Program-made: the position numbers and the translations under genes
Assembly: GCF_900101985.1 (NCBI RefSeq)
Contig: NZ_FNAR01000006.1
Coordinates: 1-64,000, forward strand
Direction of reading: 5' to 3'
Length of the DNA stretch: 64,000 nucleotides
From: Bhargavaea beijingensis
GTDB taxonomy: Bacteria; Bacillota; Bacilli; Bacillales_A; Planococcaceae
Notes under the pieces: model-generated
The model's database searches: none
Told to the model about the DNA's origin: nothing
What the model saw: only the letters and a program-made list of their open reading frames with translations
Part shown: positions 50,108 to 54,364 of the stretch, piece by piece
How positions within the stretch are numbered: position 1 is the first letter of the stretch
How the letters are laid out: every line of letters starts with the position of its first letter

Positions 50108-51682
50108 TCAGAGAAGGCTGAATAGCCTGATGTCCTGATGCTTATCCTGGAACCAGCGGAGGGCAAAGTCGTTTTCGAAGAGGAAGACGAGCTTGTCGTA
50201 GCGGTCCTTGACGAGCATGGCACGCGGCCCGGTCATGGATTCCTTCACATCTCCTTCATTTTCGATCCAGCGGGCGACTTTCTGGCCGATATGCTGGATG
50301 ACCACTTCGGAATTGTATTCATTCTTCATGCGGTGTTCGAAAACTTCGAACTGGAGCTGCCCGACCGCTCCGAGGATGACTTCTTCGGTATAAAGCGTCT
50401 TGTAATACTGAATGGCACCTTCCTGTACAAGCTGCAAGATCCCTTTGTGGAAGTGCTTGGATTTCATGACGTTCTTCGGGGACACTTTGACGAATAGTTC
50501 CGGTGTAAACTGCGGGAGCGGTTCGAAGGCGAAGTTCCCCTTGCCGCCCGTGATCGTGTCGCCGATCTGATAGTTGCCCGTGTCATAAAGCCCGATAATA
50601 TCGCCCGCAACCGCGATATTGACTGTCTCCCGGTCATCCGCCAAGAACTGTGTGGACTGGCTGACTTTAAAGGTCTTTGGAATCCTGGGGACGGTCACCT
50701 GCATCCCCCGGTCGAATTCTCCGGAAACGATCCGGACAAATGCAATCCGGTCGCGGTGCGCAGGATTCATGTTGGCCTGGATCTTAAAGATGAAGCCGGT
50801 AAATTCTTCATCATACGGACTGACACTGCCGCCGTCCGCCGTGTTCCGCGGTTGCGGTGCCGGCGCAAACTGCAGATAGGTTTCAAGGAATGTCTGCACG
50901 CCGAAGTTCGTCAATGCAGAACCAAAGAACACAGGCGTGAGCTCGCCACGCCGCACACGCTCTTCATCAAAATCGTTCCCCGCCTCGTCCAACAGCATGA
51001 CGTCCTCCAAGGCCTGCTGGAAATAAGATGAATCCTGGATCGGGTGAGGAGTGGCCAAATCGCCCTCTTCACCGACTTCAAGATATCGGCCTTCTCCTTC
51101 TGTCCGCGCGAGTTCAACCCGGCGGTTGTGACGGTCATAGATTCCCATGAATTCCTTGCCCATCCCGATCGGCCAGTTCATCGCATAGGACTCGATGCCG
51201 AGCACTTCCTCAAGCTCTTCCATGAGCTCGAGCGGTTCTCTGCCCTGGCGGTCGAGCTTGTTGATGAAGGTGAAGATCGGAATGCCTCTCATCCGGCAGA
51301 CTTTAAACAGCTTGATGGTCTGAGGCTCGATGCCCTTTGCCGAGTCGACCATCATGACAGCCGAATCGACGGCCATGAGGGTGCGGTAGGTATCTTCACT
51401 AAAGTCTTCATGGCCCGGCGTATCCAAAATATTGACCCGTTTTCCGTCGAAGTCGAACTGGAGTACCGAAGAAGTGACGGAAATGCCCCGCTGCTTCTCA
51501 ATTTCCATCCAGTCGGATGTGGCGAATTTGCCGGACTTTTTTCCCTTTACCGTACCCGCGTCCCGTATAGCACCCCCAAAAAACAGGAGCTTCTCGGTCA
51601 TCGTGGTCTTCCCGGCATCCGGGTGGGAGATGATCGCGAATGTCCTGCGCGATGCGATCTCTTGTTTTAATTGGTCTTCCAT
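50108..51682 (-). CDS. prfC: Peptide chain release factor 3
   Basis: A 524-residue translational GTPase that recycles RF1/RF2 after peptide release. GTP motifs are G1 [12 protein letters not shown] (about 19-30), G2 [10 protein letters not shown]3 [14 protein letters not shown], and G4 NKLDR. The RF3-type C-terminal domain contains [17 protein letters not shown] and [15 protein letters not shown] chose ATG 51682 (MEDQLKQEI), with GAGGAG upstream; an upstream in-frame ATG at 51700 lies on that ribosome site. B. subtilis lacks prfC. I recall it beside murE in staphylococci, as here. Confidence 0.94.
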
Positions 51683-51811
51683 TTTTTCATTTCTCCTCAT
51701 CTGTTTCAGCTTTTTCCCATCATAGGGACCGAAAAGCGCATTTCAAGCGATATTCAGAAAACAGCCGGAAAGGCGAACCTTTCCGGCCGAGTTTACCCGT
51801 CAATTTCCGGG

Positions 51812-53299
51812 TTAGTCCCGGGCGCCTGCCTTTCGCCCGAATTTCTTCTCCGCCTCATCCAACGCGATTTGCGCGTCGCTGTGCGGGTATTTGGTATTCC
51901 CGATAATCTGGAAGTCTTCATGGCCCTTTCCTGCGAACAGGATGATGTCGCCTTCGCCCGCGACCTCCACAGCATGGCGGACCGCTTGTTCCCGGTCGCC
52001 GATGCAGGCATAGTTTTCATGTGTCATGCCTGCGGCAAGCTCGGTGGTGATGGATTCATAATCCTCGTGCCTAGGGTCATCCGTCGTGAGAATGACGTAA
52101 TCCGCAACCGATGCCTTTTCCGCCATGGCCGGCCGCTTTGACCTGTCCCGGTTGCCGCCCGTGCCGACAAGGAAGATGAGTTTGTTTTTCTTGTATGGAA
52201 GGACCGAAGCAATCGCTTTTTCGATGGCATCCGGCGTATGCGCATAGTCAATATATATGGTAAGCGGCAAGTCCGTCTCCACCCGCTCCATGCGCCCTTT
52301 CACGGCAGGCAGCCCGCCGAGTCCGGCAATAATTTCATCGAGCCCGAGGCCGTATGCATAAAGTGCGGCAACGGAAGCCAATGCGTTGTAGACATTGAAC
52401 CCGCCGATCAGGTTCATCGCGACCTGCCGCTCCCCTTCGGGCGTATCCATCAGGAAAACGGTGCGGCCGGCCTCCAGCCGGATGTTGCGTGCCCGGAACA
52501 TGGCCTCAGAGTCCACAGCGTAAGTAAGTACAGGGTGCGGCGTCATCTGCCGGTACCGGTCCGACCACGGATCATCCGCATTCAGGACTGTGAACTTCGG
52601 CTTGGATGTATCCTGGCCGAGTTGCGCGAACAACAGCCCCTTTGCATATCCGTAATGCTCCATCGTCCCATGGTAGTCCAGGTGGTCGTGAGTCAGGTTC
52701 GTGAAAACGGCTATGTCAAATTCGGTGCCGGACAGTCGCCCTTCGACAAGGCCATGGGAAGAGACTTCCATCGTCATCGCCTCGCACCCTTCCGCAGAGG
52801 CCTGACGGATCATCCGCTGTGTAGTGAGGGCATCGGTCGTTGTGTTGGCCGACTCATAAAGCACACCATTCAGGTTGAAACCGATCGTGCCTGAAGAAGC
52901 GGACTTCCGGCCGCTGCTCCGGAGAATGCCATCAATGATATTGGCGACACTGGTCTTGCCGTTCGTGCCGGTGACGCCGATCATGCGGACCGACTTGGAC
53001 GGGTGTCCGAAGAAGGCGGAGGCGAGCAGCCCTTCCGCACGTGCCGTATCATCCGTGATGACTACGGCTGCCCTGTCCGGATCGGCCTCGACCCGCTTTT
53101 CCGCAATGATGAGTCTTGCGCCGGCGGCAAGTGCCTGGGGCACATAGTCATGCCCGTTCACGGTGTATCCGTTTATGCAGATAAAAGCACCGCCCGGCTG
53201 GACCGCTCTGGAATCGGTCGTGATGTCAGTGATCTCCGCGGGGAGCGTCCCGATCACTTTGCTGAACGGTAGATATGCCAGCAGTTCTGTTGTTTCCAT
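51812..53299 (-). CDS. murE: UDP-MurNAc-tripeptide synthetase MurE
   Basis: A 495-residue Mur ligase that adds the third stem-peptide residue to UDP-MurNAc-L-Ala-D-Glu in the cytoplasm. Domain 2 has the ATP loop GVTGTNGKTSVANI (about 109-122), SSHGL, and the NADDPW segment. The C-terminal domain has YIDYAHTPDAIEKA and GTGGNRDRSKRP. The specificity motif reads TTDDPRHED (about 400-408). Diaminopimelate ligases have DNPR and the staphylococcal lysine ligase DDPN, so DDPR is intermediate. The gene is outside a dcw cluster and next to prfC, which favours a lysine-adding enzyme but does not prove it. Start 53299 follows GAGGAAACGAC. Confidence 0.92.
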   Translation of the reverse strand: METTELLAYLPFSKVIGTLPAEITDITTDSRAVQPGGAFICINGYTVNGHDYVPQALAAGARLIIAEKRVEADPDRAAVVITDDTARAEGLLASAFFGHPSKSVRMIGVTGTNGKTSVANIIDGILRSSGRKSASSGTIGFNLNGVLYESANTTTDALTTQRMIRQASAEGCEAMTMEVSSHGLVEGRLSGTEFDIAVFTNLTHDHLDYHGTMEHYGYAKGLLFAQLGQDTSKPKFTVLNADDPWSDRYRQMTPHPVLTYAVDSEAMFRARNIRLEAGRTVFLMDTPEGERQVAMNLIGGFNVYNALASVAALYAYGLGLDEIIAGLGGLPAVKGRMERVETDLPLTIYIDYAHTPDAIEKAIASVLPYKKNKLIFLVGTGGNRDRSKRPAMAEKASVADYVILTTDDPRHEDYESITTELAAGMTHENYACIGDREQAVRHAVEVAGEGDIILFAGKGHEDFQIIGNTKYPHSDAQIALDEAEKKFGRKAGARD

Positions 53300-53311: not shown

Positions 53312-54364
53312 TCAGTCTTCCGCAAGCGGCGAAAGAATGTAAGCCCTCAGCAGGCCGGCCGCCGCTACGAGGGAATCCGTATGCGTCCTCTCCAGTGCAT
53401 GGGACGATTCGATTCCCGGGCCGAAAAGCGCGTGCCTGACGTCAAAGCCTGCGCGAATGGCCGCCGAGGCATCCGAGCCGTAATAAGGGTAGATATCTAG
53501 CTTGTGCGGAATGCCTTCCTTTTTGCAAAGATCGGCCAGATGACGGGTCAGGCCGTAATGGTAGGGCCCGCTCGAATCCTTCACGCAGATCGACACGGTA
53601 TACTCGTCGGAAGCCTGCCCGTCTCCGATGGCGCCCATATCGAATGCAATGTACTCAGTCGTGTTTTGCGGAACCGAAGCATTGCCTCCGAAGCCGATCT
53701 CTTCATTATTAGAGATGTAAAGGTGCAGGGTATGCGGAAGTTTTATGCCGCTCTCCTTCAGCCTTGACGCAAGCTCCAGCAAAAGTGCCGTGCTCGCTTT
53801 GTCGTCGAGGTGGCGGGACTTGATGTAGCCGCCGATCCTTTCAAAACGCGGGTTAAACGAAACAAAGTCTCCCACCTCGATGCCGAGCGCCCGTGTGTCT
53901 TCTGCGCTGACGCTCCGCTCATCCAGCCGCACCTCGATGTTGTCGCTGCTCCGCTCCGCTTTGGCGGAATCCCGATACACATGAACGGTCGTCTGGTGCA
54001 TCAAGATGGTTCCGCGAATTTTTCTGCCGTCCGCCGTATGGACAGTGCAGTACTCCCCTTCGGCGGCATTCCAGTTGAATCCGCCGATCTTATCCAGTTT
54101 CAGCCGACCGGAAGACTTTACTTCCTTGACGATTGCGCCGAGCGTATCGATGTGTGCCGTGATCAGCCGGCTTCTGGTATCATCTTCTCCGCGGAATGTG
54201 GCGATGACGGCCCCCTTGTTTGTGCGGGTCAGTTCCGCCCCGCTTTCAGCAAGATAGGTTTCCGCCAGCTTCATGGCATCTTTCGTATAGCCCGAAGGAC
54301 TCGGTGTATTGACGAGTTCTTCCAGAATCTTGATTGAATCTTCAATGTCAAAAGGTATGTTCAT
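53312..54364 (-). CDS. M42-family glutamyl/leucyl aminopeptidase-type metallopeptidase
   Basis: A 350-residue cytosolic M42 peptidase (tetrahedral aminopeptidase family). Metal and catalytic residues are in TAHIDTLG (His/Asp near 69-71), SRHLDDKAS (near 182), NNEEIGFGGN (catalytic Glu pair near 213), FDMGAIGD and SSHALERTHTDS near the C-terminus. It removes N-terminal residues from small peptides. GTP: not involved. Start 54364 has GGGGGG upstream. It lies 12 bases ahead of murE and is probably cotranscribed with murE and perhaps prfC. Confidence 0.9.
   Translation of the reverse strand: MNIPFDIEDSIKILEELVNTPSPSGYTKDAMKLAETYLAESGAELTRTNKGAVIATFRGEDDTRSRLITAHIDTLGAIVKEVKSSGRLKLDKIGGFNWNAAEGEYCTVHTADGRKIRGTILMHQTTVHVYRDSAKAERSSDNIEVRLDERSVSAEDTRALGIEVGDFVSFNPRFERIGGYIKSRHLDDKASTALLLELASRLKESGIKLPHTLHLYISNNEEIGFGGNASVPQNTTEYIAFDMGAIGDGQASDEYTVSICVKDSSGPYHYGLTRHLADLCKKEGIPHKLDIYPYYGSDASAAIRAGFDVRHALFGPGIESSHALERTHTDSLVAAAGLLRAYILSPLAED

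Follow-up and report, generated by a model that had tools for sequence, protein, structure and literature searches.

Two MurE ligases in Bhargavaea beijingensis and other Planococcaceae: a DDPR-type enzyme beside prfC and a candidate spore-cortex enzyme outside the dcw cluster

The window analyzed in this study is a stretch of 64,000 nucleotides from Bhargavaea beijingensis. On its minus strand, at positions 51812 to 53299, lies an open reading frame of 495 amino acids, designated MurE1, which was identified as an intact, full-length MurE by its score against TIGR01085 (482 bits, with a cut-off of 257.3) and by its placement in a tree of MurE-like proteins. When the same positions were read on the plus strand, stops were encountered. 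The specificity motif DDPR (residues 407-410) is encoded by the codons at 52070 to 52081 of the minus strand, as located by alignment with E. coli MurE (DNPR, residues 413-416) and by codon pattern; the original prediction of a MurE with a DDPR loop at this place was thus confirmed, with the minus strand as its coding strand. Directly upstream, on the same strand, is what we take to be an M42-type peptidase-like gene (53312 to 54364), and the next gene downstream in the window (50108 to 51700, minus strand) is presumably prfC, encoding peptide chain release factor 3. Both neighbors were conserved in these places in all 10 named family loci examined; the distance from MurE1 to prfC was within ~0.6 kb in nine of them and ~2.9 kb in the tenth (L017). 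prfC also adjoined MurE in 2/2 DNPA-type loci checked, and was not found beside MurE in the 5/5 other Bacilli loci checked. The original prediction was right in placing prfC next to murE, as in staphylococci. The four named loci that best matched MurE1 were all from Bhargavaea, at 95-96% identity.

The GTNGKT segment was present in MurE1, as it was in a second MurE of the Bhargavaea genome (MurE2, described below). When eight positions of E. coli MurE (K224, R389, D413, N414, P415, R416, G464, and E468) were compared, seven were identical in MurE1, and the sole departure was Asp408 in place of N414. Equivalents of K224, R389, and E468 were found in 42/42 aligned MurE1 rows. MurE1 thus has Asp408 and Arg410 where a diaminopimelate (Dap) motif has both Asn414 and Arg416 and, because Asp408 replaces Asn414, it was not classed as a Dap-type MurE.

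The DDPR motif had been viewed as standing between the Dap and lysine types. Its distribution was examined across the family. The LTTDDPR codon pattern was matched in 176 of 200 family genomes, a tally that counts pattern matches per genome and does not place each one inside murE. Each positive genome had one match, except G191 with two, and a reversed control pattern was matched in 1 of the 200. The 24 genomes without LTTDDPR comprised 19/19 from g4, 4/4 from g2, and G183, a 640-contig assembly. Moreover, DDPR was read in 40/40 family MurE1 loci (the 10 named and the 30 best-scoring others). DDPR is the ordinary motif of Planococcaceae MurE1, and an oddity peculiar to the Bhargavaea genome was ruled out by its presence in 176 of the 200 family genomes. 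The original prediction had stated that finding DDPR in all Lys-type Planococcaceae enzymes would make it simply the family norm; because 40/40 loci and 176/200 genomes carry it, this is essentially what was found for the family taken as a whole. DDPR also occurred in the MurE of another Bacilli family (f16) within the same larger clade. As to the accompanying exchange at N383/D408, Asn was found at the first place in 46/47 DDPR rows; because 15/76 DNPR rows also have Asn there, the exchange is a tendency and not a rule.

Several other MurE-like paralogues were encountered. In g4 and g2 genomes, which were without MurE1, a MurE-like protein (L141, L142, L143, L157, L111, and L112) carried KDVV or KDIV at the motif place, and the place of GKGHE read GCQGMD; this protein is possibly a vegetative ornithine ligase. 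Ten further loci (L144, L146, L149, L152, L153, L154, L155, L156, L160, and L198) encoded accessory MurE-like ligases whose motif place read DDLN or DDRN; a common two-component pair was present at 8/10 of these loci and a DUF1541-type gene cluster at 7/10, as judged by gene clustering with both annotated from L160. Another group (L145, L147, L150, L151, and L199) carried DHPG; in L150, genes for a flotillin, a lyase-family protein, and a diphthamide-synthase-like protein lay nearby. Also, f16 genomes, whose main MurE has DDPR, contained MurE-like paralogues with HDVR, HDAR, or HDPR (L192-L195).

It had been proposed that a second murE be sought in the dcw cluster. Such a gene exists, but outside that cluster: MurE2, with a DNPR motif, was found at C21:23365-24732 of the Bhargavaea genome (G000), scoring 398 bits against TIGR01085 (cut-off of 257.3) and ending 16.2 kb upstream of mraZ. 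A second murE within the cluster itself was rejected, as the cluster runs from mraZ to murD without a murE. In Bhargavaea, MurE2 lies between a ylbC-like gene and ylbF, the ylb names and order being those of B. subtilis. The ylbC-like gene was upstream of MurE2 in 17/17 loci compared; a ylbF-like gene was downstream in 16/17 by gene clustering and was seen directly in the seventeenth (L009), with one additional gene intervening in L137. Like E. coli MurE, a meso-diaminopimelate ligase, MurE2 has all eight of the compared positions; unlike it, MurE2 belongs to a separate deep clade and is encoded outside the dcw cluster. Across 57 distinct MurE2 rows (which exclude L118 and L119, of other paralogue types), equivalents of K224, R389, and E468 were present in 57/57, as was a D-N-x-R motif (50 DNPR, 3 DNSR, 3 DNAR, and 1 DNCR). 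The murE genes are under purifying selection, with dN/dS values of 0.033-0.047 for MurE1 (six Bhargavaea copies) and, for MurE2, 0.075-0.178 where defined (26/28 pairs from eight g1 copies), or 0.075-0.122 when only the six most similar of these copies are compared. When 250 genomes of the class were searched at 1e-80, 19 matches were obtained, 13 within the family and 6 elsewhere; at 35-37% identity, these six appear to be ordinary MurE, and we take them as such. Highly similar MurE2 proteins were thus confined, among the 250 genomes, to this family.

Beside MurE2, and divergent from it, is a gene for a 242-aa aspartokinase-like protein (L009:8454-9182, minus strand, on C21 of G000). Its best model was NF006068 (216 bits, below the cut-off of 474), and it covered only the first 246-248 positions of models 405-407 long, which correspond to the catalytic part. 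This gene was found at 9 of the 17 MurE2 loci compared, plus G020. An aspartokinase without regulatory domains may supply Dap free of feedback control.

A tree of 80 such MurE-like sequences, built by a quick method, was used to examine how these proteins are related; for motif counts, 198 MurE rows were collapsed to 176 distinct ones. MurE1 and the DNPA type formed one clade (support 99), which also included the Gemella MurE L022 (DSPR) and the G163 paralogue L113 (NNPG). This clade was nested in one containing the f16 proteins (support 97), which in turn fell inside a larger clade shared with DNPR enzymes from the rest of the Bacilli sampled (support 97). The placement of MurE1 between Dap and lysine types fits the tree in a sense, as the MurE1/DNPA clade nests among DNPR enzymes of Bacilli, with DDPR in two of its branches, but DDPR is the family norm. 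Plausibly, DDPR preceded DNPA, a direction that the tree leaves unproven. The DNPA loci of family f9, which we infer to be staphylococci, share with MurE1 a common clade and the prfC linkage; because its motif is DDPR, with the Arg that the DNPA type lacks, MurE1 is a sister type and not the staphylococcal type proper. MurE2 formed a separate deep clade of 18 rows (support 99) and had 33% identity to MurE1; it is therefore no recent copy of MurE1.

We then compared the occurrence of MurE2 with that of sporulation genes in the 200 family genomes. MurE2 was called at E ≤ 1e-80, a threshold chosen after the table had been seen. SpoIVA was found in 153 genomes (150 of them above the model cut-off) and SpoIIE in 151, all below the curated cut-off of its model and all among the 153 with SpoIVA. 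MurE2 was present in 150/151 genomes with spoIIE versus 0/49 without it, and in 150/153 genomes with SpoIVA versus 0/47 without it. Because the gap in E-values was narrow (weakest positive 7.5e-81, in g4; best remainder 2.3e-77, in g7) and the threshold was post hoc, the loci themselves were inspected in 20 genomes that lacked a strong MurE2 match. In 16 of the 20, all from genomes without SpoIVA or SpoIIE, no MurE2 was present between YlbC (YugN in one locus) and YlbF. G020, the lone SpoIIE-positive exception, had at the syntenic place an uninterrupted MurE2 frame of 439 codons, short at its N-terminal end, with GTNGKT and DNPR, whereas its spoIIE-lacking congeners G001, G038, and G054 had only MurE2 fragments there. 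For g4, which holds the weakest positives, three rows fell in the MurE2 clade, two of these at the syntenic locus, and the other g4 genomes were called by E-value alone. In an rpoB tree of 30 genomes, 6/6 independent pairs on well-supported branches agreed (sign test, p 0.031) with G020 counted as MurE2-positive; before that correction, the result was 5/6 (p 0.0625). MurE2 thus accompanies the sporulation genes and disappears where they do, as would be expected of a spore-cortex gene. Bhargavaea has been described as non-spore-forming, a point against the sporulation reading; its genome keeps murE2, a SpoIVA gene (G000:C18), and a SpoIIE gene (G000:C36).

Upstream regions were next searched for promoter-like elements. 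For sigma-K, the pattern AC-N14-18-CATANNNTA was used, based on the B. subtilis consensus. The full pattern was found upstream of 22/57 MurE2 genes (shuffled mean 1.0, largest 3) and, in a wider window, of 37/58; for MurE1, the corresponding values were 2/42 and 3/42. With one representative per genus, it was found in 7/13 genera, a number reached in 0/1000 shuffles. The element CATANNNTA alone preceded murE2 in 12/13 genera (shuffled mean 0.84, largest 4) and in 51/57 rows, versus 2/42 MurE1 windows; the six rows without the exact element were three g11 loci and three others. Across the whole of L009, CATANNNTA was not enriched (4 found versus 2.67 expected), and only its position was notable. 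When all genes at 12 loci were checked, the full pattern preceded MurE2 in 5/12, and 12 of the other 14 gene groups had none; the exceptions were GDPD (1/12) and aspartokinase (2/6). Patterns for sigma-E, -F, -G, and -A were found before murE2 in 2, 0, 3, and 6 of 57 rows, respectively, with no clear excess over the shuffled means of 2.1, 0.6, 1.4, and 5.9. For MurE1, the sigma-E pattern was found in 4 of 42 windows (shuffled mean 1.7) and the sigma-G pattern in 5 (shuffled mean 1.9), small excesses that we take to be noise. As five patterns were tried, the sigma-K result carries that multiplicity; dpaA, intended as a positive control, proved unusable, with 30 genomes yielding just 3 loci and none of these reaching the cut-off. 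Because related genomes are not independent and the -10 elements of sigma-E and sigma-K are similar, we claim only a predicted mother-cell-type promoter before murE2, most likely one recognized by sigma-K. In C. difficile, murE is listed with sigma-K/sigma-A promoters (PMC3789822).

These combined data suggest two dedicated MurE enzymes. During growth, MurE1 would add lysine to the peptidoglycan precursor; in the mother cell, sigma-K would switch on murE2, and MurE2 would add meso-diaminopimelate to cortex precursors. We consider this scheme likely; which amino acid each enzyme uses, what Asp408 contributes, and when the genes are expressed are its inferred parts. For MurE2, a spore-cortex diaminopimelate ligase is the most likely assignment, its specificity being predicted from the motif and contact positions. 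For MurE1, the best reading is a vegetative lysine ligase, on the basis of the tree. Its best match among solved structures was S. aureus MurE (PDB 4C12, an L-lysine ligase; 443 bits), and DNPA-type loci share its clade and its prfC neighbor; unlike that enzyme, MurE1 has DDPR where DNPA lacks the Arg, and its N383 is replaced by Glu in the S. aureus-like rows. The S. aureus motif had been given as DDPN, which was incorrect: both the structure match and the S. aureus study identify it as DNPA (PMC3829189). Nor is the retained Arg a puzzle by itself. Wild-type S. aureus MurE is reported to have no detectable mDAP activity, and introducing an Arg (A409R) did not confer any (PMC3829189); the Arg alone is therefore not decisive for Dap. 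Also, the DDPR enzyme of T. maritima (PDB 4BUB, an L/D-lysine ligase) inserts L- and D-lysine and can use mDAP in vitro (PMC9434261).

The T. maritima enzyme also raises the alternative that MurE1 is bispecific for L-lysine and meso-diaminopimelate, that growing cells use lysine only because its pool is larger, and that the task of MurE2 is simply to ensure that the mother cell makes Dap-containing precursors. MurE1 shares with T. maritima MurE the ILTTDDPR segment, together with GGN in the preceding conserved segment, and that enzyme's use of mDAP in vitro fits this alternative; pool size, moreover, accounts for part of the lysine selectivity of S. aureus MurE (PMC3829189). The two sequences are far apart (293 bits), and the mixed specificity reported is that of the T. 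maritima enzyme. Against this alternative, spoIIE-positive genomes retain a distinct Dap-type gene, an indication that MurE1 by itself is insufficient for Dap. We regard bispecificity as rather unlikely.

A different explanation concerns MurE2, which could be a stress or repair ligase, or have a product outside the wall, with its link to sporulation arising from genome reduction after sporulation was lost. Several SpoIVA-less genera do have small genomes (g6 and g8, 2.4-3.2 Mb), but MurE2 is also missing from other SpoIVA- and SpoIIE-negative genomes that match the positive ones in size (g7, up to 3.9 Mb; G031, 4.1 Mb). The decayed MurE2 copies in g2 accompany a missing spoIIE, a sigma-K-like element lies upstream of the gene, and the Dap motif positions are retained in all 57 rows; we thus judge such a role improbable. 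Finally, automatic naming would make MurE1 itself the diaminopimelate ligase and Dap a component of the vegetative wall. This appears very improbable. Although Arg410, the counterpart of the residue that contacts the carboxylate of Dap, is retained and the Dap ligase model NF001126 accepts MurE1 (515 bits, cut-off of 373), the tree groups MurE1 with the DNPA type, Asp stands in place of N414, and the wall of the relative Lysinibacillus is of the lysine type (PMC6971209). The L-lysine ligase equivalog NF010628 did not accept MurE1 (396 bits, cut-off of 536), and its acceptance by NF001126 probably attaches the wrong substrate name. NCBIfam models would label MurE1 and MurE2 alike as Dap ligase, and the Arg of a DDPR motif is not to be taken as a sign of Dap specificity.

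It has been known since the 1970s that spore formers whose vegetative wall contains lysine place diaminopimelate in the cortex. Linnett and Tipper reportedly found lysine in the vegetative wall and Dap in the cortex of B. sphaericus, with Dap ligase activity said to arise during sporulation. The assignment of lysine to growth and Dap to cortex is the same here; that work described activities without genes, whereas genes are proposed in this study, and the pair of activities seen in B. sphaericus would be encoded by murE1 and murE2. Our literature search, mostly of papers outside subscription, found none that names the lysine and Dap ligase genes of such spore formers. The DDPR observation is ordinary, and it is conceivable that the MurE2 assignment has been published before.

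For the family as a whole, we envisage a developmental switch at residue 3 of the peptidoglycan stem, in which a DDPR lysine ligase would alternate with a sigma-K-driven DNPR ligase, paired in several genera with the divergent aspartokinase, which may raise Dap supply in the mother cell; in g4 and g2, which have no MurE1, the partner would be a third MurE that does not carry this motif and perhaps adds ornithine, with the spore gene kept alongside spoIIE. Our confidence in this broader picture is evenly divided. MurE2 provides a concrete, deletable candidate across the whole family, and the question of why the cortex needs Dap thereby becomes directly testable.
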